Source: Christiangramia lutea (GTDB lineage Bacteria; Bacteroidota; Bacteroidia; Flavobacteriales; Flavobacteriaceae). From it: a stretch of 64,000 nucleotides of DNA. Each line of letters begins with the position of its first letter. Position 1 is the first letter of the stretch. The stretch is from NCBI RefSeq assembly GCF_022489035.1, contig NZ_JAKVTV010000004.1, positions 186,001 through 250,000 on the forward strand, in the 5' to 3' direction. Made by a program: the position numbers and the translations under genes. Under the pieces are notes generated by a model. It did no database searches, was not told the DNA's origin, and worked only from the letters and a program-made list of their open reading frames with translations. This document shows positions 55,907 to 62,502 of this stretch, in pieces.

Positions 55907-57088
55907 TTATAAATTAAAATATTCGATATACGTATTCAGGTCTTTATCCCCGCGTCCAGAAAGGTTTACCACTACAATATCATCTTCCTTGAATTTCCTC
56001 GTTTCGAAAATTGCCAGGGCATGTGAGGTTTCAATTGCTGGAATAATTCCTTCCAGTTTTGCCAATTCCAGACCAGCTTTCATGGCATCTTCATCGGTAA
56101 CACTAATGAATTCTCCTCTACCGCTGGTAAAAAGATTTGCATGCATCGGGCCAACTCCGGGATAATCGAGCCCGGCGGAAATAGAATAGGGCTCTGTTAT
56201 TTGTCCGTCGCCGGTTTGCATCAGCAAAGTTTTACTTCCATGAATAATTCCTGCTTTTCCAAGTGCTGAAGTGGCAGCACTTTCTCCAGAATCAATTCCT
56301 TTTCCGGCAGCTTCCACGGCGATAATTCCAACTTCCGGATTGTCCAGGTAATGATAATAAGCCCCGGCAGCATTGCTTCCGCCGCCAACACAGGCCACTA
56401 TAAAATCTGGGTCTTCTTTTCCTTCTTTTTCGGTTAACTGGTTTTTGATCTCTTCAGAGATCACCGCCTGAAATCTCGCCACCATATCTGGGTAAGGATG
56501 AGGTCCCACCACAGAACCAATGATATAATGCGTATCCACCGGATTATTGATCCAGTCACGAATGGCTTCGTTGGTTGCATCTTTTAGTGTCTTACTTCCA
56601 GATTTTGCAGGAACTACTCTCGCTCCAAGCATTTTCATACGGGCAACATTAGGCGCCTGTCGTTCAATATCGATCTCTCCCATATAAACGATGCATTCCA
56701 TGCCCATCAATGCACAAACAGTTGCCGTAGCAACTCCATGCTGGCCCGCACCGGTTTCGGCGATGATCCGTTTTTTACCAAGCTTCTGAGCCATAAGGAT
56801 CTGCCCGATGGTATTATTCACCTTGTGTGCACCGGTATGACAAAGATCCTCCCTTTTCAGGTAAACCTTCGTTCTGTATTTCTCGCTAAAGCGTTTTGCA
56901 TAATAGAGTGGAGTAGGGCGTCCTACATATTCTTTAAGAAGTTCCTTGAATTCCTTCTGAAAGGACTCTTCTTTCATGATGTCTAAATAGCGAGAACGCA
57001 ATTCTTCTACATTTGGGTAGAGCATTTCGGGAATGTAAGCCCCACCGAACTCTCCATAATATCCTTTTTCGTTAACCTGATAGCTCAT
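55907..57088 (-). CDS. trpB: tryptophan synthase beta subunit
   Basis: A 393-residue PLP-dependent enzyme. The PLP lysine is Lys89 in the [12 protein letters not shown] motif. [14 protein letters not shown] is the phosphate-binding loop and [19 protein letters not shown] the substrate region. It condenses indole with serine to make tryptophan. Length fits the usual 390-400 aa. trpF lies 1 bp upstream. The operon order is E G D C F B A. Confidence 0.97.
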
Positions 57089-57089
57089 T

Positions 57090-57806
57090 CTATGAATTTA
57101 TCTGAGTTTTGAAATCTTTCAATTCCTTTAATTTTTTTAATCCTGGTTTCAATTCGAACTTACTATTCACATCTACAGCATAAAGAAGATCTGGTTTTCC
57201 TTTTCTGTAAAAATGACTTTTTAATTCAGCAATTGCCTTCCCATGTTCCGGCCCTATACCACCGCTTAAGAAAAATGGGGTATTCGAAGGATAATTTTTC
57301 AGGATCTTCCAGTCGAATTCAGTTCCGTTTCCGCCACGATGTTTACCTTTTGTATCAAACAGAAAATAATCTACGATTCCTTCAAATGGTTTAATTTCCT
57401 GAAAATCGAAATCATCACCCACAGAAAATACTTTTATAATTTCTGGGGTGTTTCCCAGTTTCTGAAGTTTCTTTTTCAGATCAATGGCAAATCCTCCAGA
57501 TTCATCTCCGTGTAGCTGGACGGCATTCAACCTGTAATTTATAACCTTCTCCTTAATTTCTTCAATTTCGGAATTTACAAAAACACCTGCTTTTTTGATT
57601 TCCGGAGAAATCTCAGGGAGTTCCCCCTCAAAATATCTCGGTGATTTGCTATAGAAAATAAAGCCTAAATAATCCGGCTGCAATTCGGCAATCTGAATAA
57701 TATTTCCGGTTTGTTTCATTCCACAAATTTTAAGACTCAATCCTGAACTTTGTCCCGATGCCGGAGTAATCAGGGATTTTTCTTTCATGTTCTTTTGATC
57801 CATCAT
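57090..57806 (-). CDS. trpF: phosphoribosylanthranilate isomerase
   Basis: A 238-residue TIM-barrel enzyme. [20 protein letters not shown] is the conserved first strand with the catalytic Cys. [31 protein letters not shown] (catalytic Asp) and [14 protein letters not shown] follow. An N-terminal extension of about 25 residues precedes the fold, so an inner start near residue 7 is possible. It makes CdRP from PRA. It abuts trpC at both ends of the junction. Confidence 0.94.
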
Positions 57807-58595
57807 TTACGCAATAGATTTTAGTTCTTTAATAAATTCTTTTGCTGCAGCTCCCGGATCATCGGTTTTCATGAAATTTTCACCAATGAGAAAACCCTGG
57901 TAGCCGTAATTTTTAAGATCTGCAATGGCTTGTGTATTGCTGATTCCACTTTCGGAAACTTTCACAATTTCATTTGGAATCAATTCTGCCAGTTCTTTTG
58001 AATTCTCGATACTAACCTCGAAAGTCTTCAGGTTTCTGTTATTAACGCCGATCATATCTGCATTCACCTTCAATGATTTCTGTAGTTCTTCTTTATTATG
58101 GATTTCGAGAAGGACATCCATTCCCAGATCTTTTGCGGAATCTGCAAGGTGTATCAACTGCTTTTCGGAAAGAACCGCGGCAATCAAAAGGATCGCATCG
58201 GCACCGTAGGCTTTTGCTTCCTTGACCTGGTAATCATCGATCATAAATTCCTTCCTCAAGATAGGGATATTAACTGAAGCTCTGGCATAAAGCAAGTCTT
58301 CCAGGGAACCTCCAAAATACTTTCCGTCAGTTAAAACTGAAATCCCCGAAGCATCTGCCGATTCATATCCTGTTACAACATCCTGAACATTCAGGCTTTG
58401 GTTGATCACAGATTTTGAAGGGGACCTTCGTTTATGCTCAGCGATAATTCCTGATCCGGATTTTAAATTTTCGGCTAGAGAAAAGCATTTTCTGTCGAAT
58501 AGAACGGAATTCTCCAGTTGAGAAACCGGGATTAGAGATTTCTTTAGTTCAACCTCTTTAAATTTATCTGCTATGATCTTATCAAGGATATTCAT
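57807..58595 (-). CDS. trpC: indole-3-glycerol phosphate synthase
   Basis: A 262-residue TIM-barrel enzyme. IIAEHKRRSPSKSVI, SVLTDGKYFGGSLEDL, RKEFMIDDYQVKEA and IGVNNRNLKTFEV are the classic blocks with the catalytic Lys and Glu residues. It closes the indole ring by decarboxylating CdRP. It has no fused TrpF, unlike E. coli. It abuts trpF, and trpD lies immediately upstream. Confidence 0.96.
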   Translation of the reverse strand: MNILDKIIADKFKEVELKKSLIPVSQLENSVLFDRKCFSLAENLKSGSGIIAEHKRRSPSKSVINQSLNVQDVVTGYESADASGISVLTDGKYFGGSLEDLLYARASVNIPILRKEFMIDDYQVKEAKAYGADAILLIAAVLSEKQLIHLADSAKDLGMDVLLEIHNKEELQKSLKVNADMIGVNNRNLKTFEVSIENSKELAELIPNEIVKVSESGISNTQAIADLKNYGYQGFLIGENFMKTDDPGAAAKEFIKELKSIA

Positions 58596-59591
58596 TTATA
58601 TCTGACTTAATTCCTGTAATTTTTTAAAACTTTCAAATGCTTTGCCAGATTCAAGAGATTCTCTGGCAGCAGCAAAACCGTCCTGTGGACTCAGGCTTCT
58701 TGAAGTTGCAATAGCCATACCAGCATTGGCACAAACTACATTGTTTTGAGCTTGTGTTCCCTTGCCTTTTAAAATATTGGTAAGGATTTCTGCGGAACTT
58801 TCGATGGAACCACCACCGGCAATTTCAGCCTGTTTTAACTCTGAAACTCCAAAATCAGTCGCTTTTAATACTCTTTCAGAATTATTACTGATGCTTTTAG
58901 TTTCTCCAGTAAGGGAAATTTCATCATAACCATCAAGGGCATGCAGGATGGTATAATTTTTATTAGTATTCTGATATAAATAGGCGTACATACGTGCCAG
59001 TTCAAGACTGAAAACACCTACCAGTTGGTTCTTCGGAAACGCCGGATTCACCATTGGTCCAAGCATATTGAAAAAAGTTTTAACCGCAAGACTCTTTCTA
59101 ACGGGAGCAACATTTTTCATAGCTGGGTGAAATAAGGGAGCATGCAGAATGCAAATATTAGCCTCATCAATACATTTTTCAAGAAAACCTGCATCATTGC
59201 TGAATTTGATTCCAAGATATTCCATCACGTTCGAGCTTCCGCTAACCGATGACACACCGTAATTCCCATGCTTGGCCACTTTTACTCCGGCTCCAGCAGT
59301 TACAAAAGATGAGGTTGTTGAAATATTAAAAGTATCTTTTCCATCACCACCTGAACCGCAAAGATCTACAGCTTCATATCCTGAAAGATCAACCTTTATG
59401 CATAATTCGAGTAAAGCATCCCGAAAACCTTCCAGCTCTTCGATGGTGATACTTCTCATCATATAAACGGTTAGAAAAGCAGCGATCTGGGTTTCGTTAT
59501 ATTTTCCTTCAGAAATATTGAAAATAACCTGTTTAGCCTCTTCTGTGCTGATGGTTTCGTGGCTAATTAGCCTGTTTAAAAGTTCTTTCAT
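58596..59591 (-). CDS. trpD: anthranilate phosphoribosyltransferase
   Basis: A 331-residue enzyme of the type III PRTase fold. CGSGGDGKDTFNISTTSSFV is the PRPP-binding loop, and KHGNYGVSSVSGSSNVMEYL and RKSLAVKTFFNMLGPMVNP follow. It transfers phosphoribose from PRPP to anthranilate. It is a separate gene, not fused to trpG. An 88-bp gap with a palindromic repeat precedes it. Confidence 0.96.
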   Translation of the reverse strand: MKELLNRLISHETISTEEAKQVIFNISEGKYNETQIAAFLTVYMMRSITIEELEGFRDALLELCIKVDLSGYEAVDLCGSGGDGKDTFNISTTSSFVTAGAGVKVAKHGNYGVSSVSGSSNVMEYLGIKFSNDAGFLEKCIDEANICILHAPLFHPAMKNVAPVRKSLAVKTFFNMLGPMVNPAFPKNQLVGVFSLELARMYAYLYQNTNKNYTILHALDGYDEISLTGETKSISNNSERVLKATDFGVSELKQAEIAGGGSIESSAEILTNILKGKGTQAQNNVVCANAGMAIATSRSLSPQDGFAAARESLESGKAFESFKKLQELSQI

Positions 59592-59613
59592 TATTTATAA
59601 TTTCTTCTGATCT

Positions 59614-59668
59614 GTCATCCTGAACTTGTTTCAGGGCTTTTGAGAAGCTGAAACAAGTTCAGCTTGAC
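59614..59668. repeat. palindromic repeat inside the trp operon, copy 4
   Basis: GTCA at 59614-59617 precedes CTGAACTTGTTTCAG (59620-59634), which pairs perfectly over 15 bp with CTGAAACAAGTTCAG (59648-59662), then TTGAC. It lies in the trpG-trpD gap. It is the same type as copies 1 and 2. Confidence 0.8.
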
Positions 59669-59679
59669 GCTGTGTTGAA

Positions 59680-60303
59680 CTAATGTGATGGTTTCTCAGA
59701 TTTTGATACTTCTACTTTTTGCCTATTATCTAAATCTGGCCCGTGCGCCCAGTTTTTGATCATTTTCTTTCCTTCAGGAGTTAGTACAGATTCAGGATGA
59801 AACTGGACTCCGCGTACATCAAATTCTGTGTGTCTTAGGGACATTATCTCTCCCTTTTCATCATAGCTGGTTGCCTGTAGCATTGGAGGAAGGTCTTTTT
59901 TTACTACCCAGGAGTGATATCTGCCCACCTGTAATTCCTTTTCCAGACCGTTAAAGATATATTCATCATCAACAAAAAGTTCAATTTTAGTGGCAACGCC
60001 GTGATATACCTCATCGAGGTTAAGTAATTTTCCGCCAAAAACTTCCCCTATTGCCTGCATTCCCAGGCAAACTCCCAGGATGCTTTTAGTAGCGGCATAT
60101 TTTTTAATAATGGGTTTTAAGAGGCCGGCTTCATCTGGAATTCCGGGACCTGGGGAAAGTAAAATTTTATCATACTCTTCAACATCGTCAATGTGTAGTT
60201 GATCATTACGCCTTACTACCACTTCGCAATCCAGTTCTTCCAGGTAATGCACCAGATTATACACGAAAGAATCGTAATTGTCTATTACCAGTATTTTCTT
60301 CAT
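59680..60303 (-). CDS. trpG: anthranilate synthase component II (glutamine amidotransferase)
   Basis: A 207-residue class I amidotransferase. It starts KKILVIDNYDSFVYNLV, with LLSPGPGIPDEAG, the nucleophile Cys in LGVCLGMQAIGEV, and the His-Glu pair in GVQFHPESVLTPEG. It supplies ammonia to TrpE to make anthranilate from chorismate. An ATG three codons further upstream (60312) is nearly as good and would abut the trpE stop. The longer frame to 60336 is not supported. Confidence 0.95.
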   Translation of the reverse strand: MKKILVIDNYDSFVYNLVHYLEELDCEVVVRRNDQLHIDDVEEYDKILLSPGPGIPDEAGLLKPIIKKYAATKSILGVCLGMQAIGEVFGGKLLNLDEVYHGVATKIELFVDDEYIFNGLEKELQVGRYHSWVVKKDLPPMLQATSYDEKGEIMSLRHTEFDVRGVQFHPESVLTPEGKKMIKNWAHGPDLDNRQKVEVSKSEKPSH

Positions 60304-60313
60304 CTTTTTCATT

Positions 60314-61708
60314 CTAAATTTCTTCAGCAATTTCAAGGGCTTTGGTTAAAGCTCCCAGTTTATTATAAACTTCCTGTAATTCATTTTCAGGTTTTGATTC
60401 TGAAACTATACCTGCTCCAGCCTGGTAGTGTAATTCATGATTCTTGCTTACAAATGACCTAATGATGATCGCATGGTTAAAATTTCCCTCAAAATCCATA
60501 AATCCAATTGCTCCACCGTAGGCACTCCTATTCACGTTTTCGAACTTTTCGATCAGTTTTAAAGCCATTGGTTTTGGCGCCCCGCTTAGGGTTCCTGCCG
60601 GAAAAGTGTCGGCCACGATCTGAGGTGTCGCTACATCACTGGAAATCTTACCGGTAACCTTGCTTACCAGGTGGATCACATGAGAGAAAAACTGAATTTC
60701 GCGGTAAGTTTCTACCTTTACCTCGCTCCCGTTACGGCTAAGATCATTCCGGGCAAGATCTACCAACATTACATGTTCAGAATTCTCTTTTTCATCTGCG
60801 GCAAGTTTCTTCGCGATCTCAGCATCTTCTTGATCATTTCCGGTCCTTTTAAATGTACCGGCAATGGGATGAATTTCTGCCCTTCCTTTATTAACTACCA
60901 ATTGCGCTTCAGGGGAACTACCAAAAATTTTAAAATTCCCATAATCGAAATAGAACAGGTAAGGGGAGGGGTTCACATTTCGAAGTGCACGATAAACATT
61001 AAATTCATCACCCTTGAATTTTTGCGAGAACCTTCTAGAGAGGACTAGCTGAAATACATCACCTCTGTGGCAATGGTCTTTAGCTGATTTTACCATGGAT
61101 TTGTACTCCTCATCGCTTAAATTAGAAACCGGATCTTCACTTCTGCTGAAATTGTAAGAGGCAAAATTCTTTACTCTTAATAATTGCTCAATTTCATCCA
61201 GATTATCCTCAGAATTGTAGGAGTGATCAAAAATATATGCCTCATTTTTGAAGTGATTAATGGCAATGATATTTTGATAAACTGCGTAATATATATCAGG
61301 GATCTGTAAATCCTCTTGTTTTCTTTTAATTTCAACATTTTCAAAGTATCGTACCGAGTCGTAGGCGATATAACCAAAAAGTCCATTATTAATGAACTTG
61401 AATTCGGAAGAATCTGCTTTAAAAGCTTTGGAAAACGTCTGAATTTGCTCTGGTACAGAAACAAACTCATCAATATTCAAAGTTTTGGAACTACCGTTAG
61501 GGAATGTGGTAGTGATCACTTCATTTTCCAGTTTGAAACTGGCAATAGGATTACAGCAGATATATGAAAAACTATTATCACTAGCATGATAATCGCTACT
61601 TTCCAAAAGTAAACTATTGGGATATCTATCTCTTAATTTAAGGTAGATACTCACCGGAGTTATAGTATCGGCAAGGATCTTCTTGTATTTTGTATTTAAT
61701 TCAAACAT
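60314..61708 (-). CDS. trpE: anthranilate synthase component I
   Basis: A 464-residue chorismate-binding enzyme. The feedback region near the N-terminus contains LLLESSDYH (Leu-Leu-Glu-Ser, the usual tryptophan-sensing site). The catalytic part has SPSPYLF-like NPSPYLFYFDYGN, HPIAGTFKRTG, ADEKENSEHVMLVDLARNDL, TFPAGTLSGAPKPMALKLIE and QAGAGIVSESKPENE. It is the first structural gene of the trp operon, preceded by the leader and attenuator. Start at the ATG complementary to 61706-61708. Confidence 0.96.
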   Translation of the reverse strand: MFELNTKYKKILADTITPVSIYLKLRDRYPNSLLLESSDYHASDNSFSYICCNPIASFKLENEVITTTFPNGSSKTLNIDEFVSVPEQIQTFSKAFKADSSEFKFINNGLFGYIAYDSVRYFENVEIKRKQEDLQIPDIYYAVYQNIIAINHFKNEAYIFDHSYNSEDNLDEIEQLLRVKNFASYNFSRSEDPVSNLSDEEYKSMVKSAKDHCHRGDVFQLVLSRRFSQKFKGDEFNVYRALRNVNPSPYLFYFDYGNFKIFGSSPEAQLVVNKGRAEIHPIAGTFKRTGNDQEDAEIAKKLAADEKENSEHVMLVDLARNDLSRNGSEVKVETYREIQFFSHVIHLVSKVTGKISSDVATPQIVADTFPAGTLSGAPKPMALKLIEKFENVNRSAYGGAIGFMDFEGNFNHAIIIRSFVSKNHELHYQAGAGIVSESKPENELQEVYNKLGALTKALEIAEEI

Positions 61709-61729: not shown

Positions 61730-61758
61730 AAAAAAAGGCCTGTCGTGAGACAAGCCTT
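61730..61758 (-). terminator. trp attenuator terminator
   Basis: On the minus strand AAGGC (54-58) with GCCTT (35-39) and a 4-bp TGTC/GACA inner stem form a hairpin with a GTGA loop (one C-A mismatch), followed by seven T. It lies 22 nt upstream of trpE. The segment CTCACGA in its loop side (61743-61749) is complementary to the sequence at the leader stop codon. Confidence 0.85.
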
Positions 61759-61796
61759 GGTAATTTCTATATTGGAAATAGCAGTTTAGCTCACGA
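61743..61796 (-). promoter_or_regulatory. predicted antiterminator pairing of the trp leader
   Basis: TCGTGAG spanning the leader stop codon (complement of 61790-61796) pairs over 7 nt with CTCACGA in the terminator (complement of 61743-61749). Between the two segments is a small ATTTC/GAAAT hairpin that brings them together. Pairing would exclude the terminator stem. Confidence 0.7.
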
Positions 61797-61847
61797 ATTT
61801 TGACGTAAGTAATTCCACCACCAGTTATTTCTTTTCATTAAAAACAT
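61791..61847 (-). CDS. trpL: trp operon leader peptide
   Basis: An 18-residue ORF, MFLMKRNNWWWNYLRQNS, with three consecutive Trp codons and a TGA stop. An inner ATG (61836-61838) gives a 15-residue form that is more likely if transcription starts near 61847. It lies between a strong promoter and an intrinsic terminator upstream of trpE. This is the layout of a Trp-sensing leader in trp attenuation. Confidence 0.85.
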   Translation of the reverse strand: MFLMKRNNWWWNYLRQNS

Positions 61848-61852
61848 GACTT

Positions 61853-61883
61853 CAAATATAAAGATGAAATTTTTCTAAACAAA
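61853..61883 (-). promoter_or_regulatory. trp operon promoter
   Basis: On the minus strand, the -33 box TTTG (complement of 61880-61883) and the -7 box TATATTTG (61853-61860) are separated by exactly 19 bp. This is the best promoter in the window. The predicted start is about 61847, at the leader ATG. Confidence 0.8.
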
Positions 61884-61932: not shown

Positions 61933-62502
61933 CTAGAATTTGAGGTTTACTGCAAGTTCAAAGTTGTCATAAATGGTCTTGTCTCCTAGATTGTCAAAGA
62001 AACTTCCTGAACCATATCTCACGTTATATTTTGAACGGTCTATTGTTAGTTCTGTAGATGCAGAATTACCATTCATTTCCAGGTCGAAGGTAATTGGATG
62101 AGTTTCATTTTTGATGGTAAGGTCTCCAACGATACCATATTTACCGTTTCCTTTTTCAGCTGCACTGGTAATTACCAGTTTAGCGGTTGGGTGCTTTTCA
62201 ACTCCGAAGAAATCTTCCGATTTTAGGTGTCCCTCCAGCTTTCCTTTGTTTTCGCCGGTAAGGTCTGTAACTGCAATTGTACTCATGTCCATTACGAATT
62301 CCCCGCCAACAATCTTATCATCTTCCATCATGAAGTATCCGCTCTCCAGATCTATAGTACCATTATGTGATCCGGTTACTTTTTCACCAGTCCATTTTAC
62401 AGTACTGGCTTCAACGTCCACCTCTTTTTTTGTATTGGTGAATGCAAGAGTAGTCAATACTATTACTGCGGCAATTCCGCCTTTTAAAATTCCAGTTTTC
62501 AT
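61933..62502 (-). CDS. YceI family exported protein
   Basis: A 189-residue protein with a signal peptide (first about 20 residues, ILKGGIAAVIVLTTLAFTN). The YceI lipocalin-like beta barrel has VKWTGEKVTGSHNGTI, FVMDMSTIAVTDL, LKSEDFFGVEKHPTAKLVI and YNVRYGSGSFFDNLGDK. Family members bind isoprenoid quinones or similar lipids. It is the last gene of the operon, 19 bp after the nitroreductase gene. Confidence 0.92.
   Translation of the reverse strand: MKTGILKGGIAAVIVLTTLAFTNTKKEVDVEASTVKWTGEKVTGSHNGTIDLESGYFMMEDDKIVGGEFVMDMSTIAVTDLTGENKGKLEGHLKSEDFFGVEKHPTAKLVITSAAEKGNGKYGIVGDLTIKNETHPITFDLEMNGNSASTELTIDRSKYNVRYGSGSFFDNLGDKTIYDNFELAVNLKF

Follow-up and report, generated by a model that had tools for sequence, protein, structure and literature searches.

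In the trp attenuator of Escherichia coli, the antiterminator uses the 5′ arm of the terminator. The closest catalogued element in Bacteroidota is the Rfam family RF01692, "Bacteroid-trp", which is described as "Bacteroidete tryptophan peptide leader RNA" and has Weinberg et al. 2010 as its published source (PMC2864571). Its model contains one long hairpin and ends at the terminator 5′ arm, with neither the 3′ arm nor an antiterminator. A Bacteroid-Trp RNA has been named upstream of the Flavobacterium psychrophilum trp operon in a 2019 paper that also describes the E. coli attenuator (PMC6414381), and a 2021 transcriptome of that species reports hints of attenuation by leader peptides ahead of amino-acid operons (PMC9723704). 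These attenuators belong to the same family of bacteria as the locus discussed here; the accessible text of both papers gives no pairing scheme, and a literature search, with most subscription journals outside its coverage, recognised none for Bacteroid-trp or for attenuation and leaderless leaders in the group.

The window is the whole stretch of DNA that was analysed, 64,000 nucleotides from Christiangramia lutea (Flavobacteriaceae). Upstream of trpE it scores 52 bits with the RF01692 model, against a cut-off of 49, and the match precedes the trp biosynthesis genes trpE-G-D-C-F-B in a member of Bacteroidota, as in that family; the same UGG run and the same AAGGCUUGUC end are found, and the first ~20 positions of the model fall over the promoter −7 region. 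The trp attenuator of the window is therefore a member of an already catalogued RNA family, which answers the doubt expressed in an earlier, sequence-only reading as to whether it had been described in this lineage. The element is, with high confidence, read as a transcription attenuator that controls the trp operon through a translating ribosome, and its antiterminator would take up the terminator loop and 3′ arm. The features of the locus are as follows.

61880 to 61883, minus strand: −33 promoter element TTTG, read from the sequence
Between TTTG and the −7 box, minus strand: spacer of 19 bp, read from the sequence
61853 to 61860, minus strand: −7 promoter element TATATTTG, from the sequence and the consensus in the accessible text of PMC6847099; 5 nt follow, then the leader ATG
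61791 to 61847, minus strand: trp leader ORF MFLMKRNNWWWNYLRQNS and its stop, 18 codons, predicted leaderless, from the sequence and kept in relatives
61847 to 61845, minus strand: leader start ATG, from the sequence
61815 to 61823, minus strand: three consecutive TGG (Trp) codons, region 1a, from the sequence
61804 to 61809, minus strand: CUUACG, region 1b, partner of CGUGAG in region 2, from the minimum free energy (MFE) fold of 61823–61771
61793 to 61791, minus strand: leader stop TGA, from the sequence
61790 to 61796, minus strand: UCGUGAG (TCGTGAG), region 2, across the leader stop codon, from duplex search and alignment
61743 to 61749, minus strand: CUCACGA (CTCACGA), region 3, from duplex search and alignment
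61730 to 61758, minus strand: intrinsic terminator with a 10-bp stem, a 4-nt loop and seven T, from sequence and folding
61708, minus strand: trpE ATG, from the ORF list
55907 to 61708, minus strand: structural genes trpE, G, D, C, F and B, downstream, from ORFs and Pfam families
61749 to 61867, minus strand: RF01692 Bacteroid-trp match, 52 bits, from the Rfam covariance model

All parts of the promoter claimed by the sequence-only reading (TTTG, 19 bp, box) are present on the minus strand at 61883–61853, as are the short ORF with its three consecutive Trp codons (TGG three times at 61823–61815) and, at 61758–61730, the terminator with seven T ahead of the ATG at 61708. The terminator hairpin, AAGGCTTGTC-TCAC-GACAGGCCTT, occupies 61758–61735 with the seven T at 61736–61730, and its folding energy in the window is −14.4 kcal/mol. 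Both strands of the TCGTGAG/CTCACGA pairing were also found, but CTCACGA, which had been placed in the terminator loop, is not purely loop: besides all four loop bases it takes in the final base of the 5′ arm and two from the 3′ arm. The plus strand of the window carries two tRNA-Glu (UUC) genes in tandem, at 212–284 and 353–425, whose Rfam scores are equal; apart from these two tRNAs and RF01692, no Rfam family reached its cut-off in the window.

RF01692 was matched (Rfam, E 0.01) in 22 of 24 genomes of the same genus, in 231 of 299 of the same family and in 22 of 295 drawn from the class, the last two scans having been run with stricter filters by which weak matches are lost. The two same-genus genomes without a match (G303, locus L155, and G305, locus L154) nevertheless carry the leader, which is thus present in 24/24, 22 by Rfam and two by sequence. 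Besides these, trpE was sought in 20 genomes of the family and two of the order that lack an Rfam match; for G023 and G041 neither an RF01692 match nor trpE was found, and L161, which begins at a contig end, was left out. A WWW leader is present at L156, whereas at L157, L159, L160 and L162–L165 the leader is shortened and has two Trp codons side by side. At several of these shortened-leader loci the stop region and terminator are altered, with pairing still possible. At L158 and L166–L171 the adjacent-Trp pattern found no leader, and a looser pattern accepted L158, L169 and L170. Judged by these searches, the RF01692-type leader would be either not universal in Flavobacteriaceae or divergent beyond the search patterns.

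The comparison of Trp codons among relatives that the sequence-only reading had suggested gave a positive outcome. The best 80 of 585 loci were taken from a trpE protein scan of named genomes in which the leader was not consulted; the nearest named relative among these best 80 of 585 is Christiangramia aestuarii, with 91% trpE identity, in a listing that may omit the window's own record. A leader ORF with adjacent Trp codons lies within 400 bases of trpE in 66 of the 80, and in 12 more the leader is further upstream or has a GTG or TTG start, giving 78/80 in total; at L235 and L260, the remaining two, only 38 and 168 bases are available ahead of trpE. Of the 66 loci with the leader near trpE, 65 yielded a terminator; the helix between leader and terminator has at least 6 bp in 61 and 5 bp in four, and in the last one no terminator was found; at L223 the best helix differs from the usual core. 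All of the Rfam-fetched loci (132/132) hold at least TGGTGG, at a place where the Rfam model itself favours UGG. The score above the RF01692 cut-off and the leader in 78/80 trpE-anchored loci indicate that the arrangement in the window is more than chance. Outside WWW the leader peptide varies among relatives, and within the genus it is the first AUG that is conserved as the start, rather than the fourth codon in the same frame.

In 10 of the 80 trpE-anchored loci (L196–L198, L205, L215, L221, L224, L230, L247 and L248, where trpE starts at 1501), a small ORF stands between the attenuator terminator and trpE, so that the leader lies further away, at about −470 to −560. At L215, 70 residues of this ORF match Pfam GIY-YIG, and the other nine were judged similar by eye only.

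The promoter of this leader is placed very close to its start codon. TTTG is found at 19 bp in 21/21 same-genus loci with a box, and in 22 of the 23 readable Christiangramia loci (21 same-genus loci and L155) exactly 5 nt separate the −7 box from the leader AUG, the other one (L154) having 4 nt and L131 being cut off. In the 125 other loci with a box, some genomes being counted twice, the spacing is at most 6 in 25, 7 to 12 in 26 and more than 12 in 74, and in the 66 trpE-anchored leaders it is 5 in 30 and 6 in two; the trpE tree calls for at least 7 changes in the short spacing. According to the accessible text of two papers, many start sites of Flavobacterium johnsoniae lie 4 or 5 bases after a −7 element, these being taken as probable promoters (PMC6847099), and the −7 element of F. 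psychrophilum spans −12 to −5 (PMC9723704). With a box 5 bases ahead of the AUG, the 5′ end is thus predicted to be either the A of the AUG or the base preceding it, and the Christiangramia trp leader mRNA is probably leaderless, as judged from the box spacing and the published start-site distance. This predicted start goes beyond both the earlier reading and the Rfam model. Leaderless mRNAs are an exception in the group, amounting to 5.5% in F. psychrophilum (PMC9723704, accessible text). The pattern of −7 box, 5 nt and ATG is not enriched genome-wide in this genome (31 sites, compared with 41 when the pattern is reversed), so that nothing points to short spacing as its general habit.

The pairing of region 2 with region 3 was followed in 153 loci, corresponding to 146 unique leaders, by the best helix between leader and terminator, with the T-run rule relaxed for nine. 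The best helix joins the stop region to the terminator loop and 3′ arm in 133/146, the window included, whereas it falls on the 5′ arm in 11 (seven of them with the loop) and elsewhere in two; in a wider set, loop and 3′ arm were best in 192 of 218 leaders. Over the 146 leaders the duplex averages −14.3 kcal/mol, compared with −8.8 kcal/mol for dinucleotide shuffles, and the share of shuffles that do as well is at most 5% for 100 leaders and above 5% for 46. In the window the TCGTGAG/CTCACGA pairing is marginal, its duplex energy being equalled by 7/100 shuffles and its longest helix by 1/30, and the case for it is carried by the comparison of relatives.

In that comparison, 974 of 1162 cells pair in the aligned 8-pair block, against a mean of 955.7 and a maximum of 962 in 500 shuffles that ignore the relatedness of the leaders, and sliding the partner strand by 1 to 3 columns lowers the paired share every time. 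In this alignment the outermost pair fails to form in 90/144 and the innermost in 72/146, so that the antiterminator core consists of six pairs. Changes on both sides affect 17 cells of the block, compared with 2 to 11 in the slid versions, and further pair types number 13, compared with 5 to 12. This covariation is thin because the region 2/3 motif is nearly invariant; compensated pairs are clear mainly in divergent members, such as UCGCAA/UUGCGA (L095), GUCGUAAG/CUUGCGGC (L133) and UCGCGA/UCGCGA (L162). Of the conservation that the earlier reading expected for this pairing, the pairing itself is kept in relatives, whereas the covariation is limited to these few compensatory changes. RNAalifold on gapped leader alignments returned nothing useful. 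In some other families of Bacteroidia (f7, f17, f41 and f42) the leader pairs with the terminator 5′ arm, as in GAACAGCA/UGCUGUUC and GGCAGCC/GGUUGCC. The probable use of the terminator loop and 3′ arm by the antiterminator is a second detail, drawn from sequence comparison, that neither the earlier reading nor the Rfam model contains.

Duplex predictions had also suggested an extra helix joining the bases that follow UCGUGAG to the terminator 5′ arm, which was dropped because shuffled segments do equally well (at least 4 bp in 87/192; on average a share of 0.57 of the shuffles matches it). An apparent trade-off of an outer G-C against an inner pair, which would hold the antiterminator at 7 bp (n = 184: both pairs in 9, only the outer in 63, only the inner in 89, neither in 23), is not claimed as length selection, since a trpE tree with 131 rows shows just ~2/9 independent pairs in which outer and inner are both swapped (median p 0.5). 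An association of A:T and G:C at the inner pair gave p 7e-9 with all sequences and only p 0.19 in L001–L111 alone, and it was likewise set aside.

A third helix, between the Trp-codon segment and the stop segment, was absent from the sequence-only reading and is supported by folding models. In the window, 61823–61771 folds at −12.6 kcal/mol, and CUUACG is paired with CGUGAG in the MFE structure. Among 133 family leaders folded from the Trp codons to just past region 2, the region 2 core has 4 or more bases paired upstream in 130, and 4 or more Trp-codon bases pair with region 2 or beyond in 117; the fold from Trp codons to region 2 has a mean z-score of −1.6. The RF01692 model alignment contains many non-standard pairs in the window, and the free fold puts the Trp-codon/stop-region hairpin at the same place. 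The folds lend no support to a conserved inner hairpin located between region 2 and region 3 (mean z −0.16).

The LR codons after WWW are conserved in many leaders, as would follow from the third helix, and this bears on whether the same attenuator might also supply a leader RNA or peptide acting in trans, like rnTrpL/peTrpL of Sinorhizobium meliloti. A short terminated RNA is indeed to be expected, and the predicted leaderless start resembles that of S. meliloti, whose trpL/rnTrpL leader RNA begins at the trpL AUG (PMC7298713, accessible text, which also describes the E. coli attenuator). Such a role is nevertheless improbable here, given that the peptide varies outside WWW and that its conserved LR part is encoded in the segment pairing with region 2.

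The cis-acting attenuator was modelled further by folding growing transcripts with their 5′ part hidden by a ribosome, which was assumed to hide 14 bases counted from the first codon base. When the ribosome sits on a Trp codon, whichever of the three, 143/146 leaders form the antiterminator (at least 5 bp) once region 3 is just complete, whereas with the ribosome at the stop codon none does (0/146) and all 146 end in the terminator. Without a ribosome, 38/146 form the antiterminator once region 3 is just complete, and the window still folds it at the first two 3′ ends examined. In the full-length transcripts the terminator is the favoured fold in 141 to 146 of the 146 across nearly all states, and in 141–145 when stalled. 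As the terminator wins at full length even in the stalled states, the switch must act by timing. Terminator and antiterminator are mutually exclusive in silico, and the 146 unique leaders support a scheme of three alternative helices, namely Trp-codon/stop region, TCGTGAG/CTCACGA and terminator.

T-boxes, protein-bound leaders such as TRAP and riboswitches are known for trp operons in other bacteria, and one of these could sense tryptophan here with the ORF as a bystander. This is very improbable, because only the two tRNAs and RF01692 reached an Rfam cut-off in the window and because the antiterminator strand starts −10 to +13 bases from the leader stop codon (in the 134 leaders with a best helix ending within the 3′ arm), a position that fits a translating ribosome. 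The idea that the terminator simply ends an upstream transcript and that the short ORF next to it has its TGG codons by chance, as can happen, is the least credible: a gene does lie upstream on the same strand (61933–62502), but it probably has its own terminator in the inverted repeat ATCCCGGATAATTAATTCCGGGAT (61924–61901, minus strand), which is followed by a T-rich stretch and ends 17 bases before the trp −33 box, and the Trp-codon leader is kept in 78/80 trpE-anchored loci and the terminator in 65/66.

The conserved codons and the kept pairing between stop region and terminator thus favour, as the best reading, the classical attenuation by a Trp-codon leader that had been proposed. RNA polymerase would start at the leader AUG or one base before it. 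When charged tRNA-Trp is present, the ribosome would reach the UGA inside UCGUGAG and cover region 2, allowing the terminator to form. When it is short, the ribosome would stall on UGGUGGUGG and open the helix that otherwise hides UCGUGAG. The freed UCGUGAG would then capture the emerging CUCACGA, a pairing suggested by comparison and folding, and so take the loop and 3′ arm of the terminator. With the terminator pre-empted, the polymerase would continue into trpE, provided that the antiterminator persists while the U run is crossed. Folding suggests that, with no ribosome, the Trp-codon segment would pair with region 2 and favour termination in most relatives.

The outcome is that a catalogue entry with a partial structure becomes a model of three helices, open to testing, for a trp control element that is common in Flavobacteriaceae. 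It also suggests a natural case in which regulation would need a ribosome that starts on a 5′-terminal AUG, in a phylum making little use of Shine-Dalgarno pairing. It is somewhat more probable than its opposite that Flavobacteriaceae in large part combine a leaderless trp leader, ribosomes working without Shine-Dalgarno pairing and an antiterminator on loop and 3′ arm, as opposed to the 5′ arm in f7, f17, f41 and f42.

Compared with known systems, the attenuator is ordinary and largely known, the new elements being its refined wiring and the probable leaderless start. Like that of E. coli, it has tandem Trp codons, alternative helices and a U-run terminator ahead of trpE; the E. coli-like architecture proposed by the sequence-only reading holds for the codons and, in silico, for the exclusive helices, but not for the antiterminator, since region 2 pairs with loop and 3′ arm instead of the 5′ arm. 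It also differs in having three adjacent Trp codons and in being predicted leaderless. With S. meliloti trpL, which belongs to a different phylum and whose leader RNA and peptide act in trans, it shares an RNA start at the leader AUG, predicted here from sequence; because S. meliloti trpL starts at its AUG, a leaderless trp leader is not new in itself.
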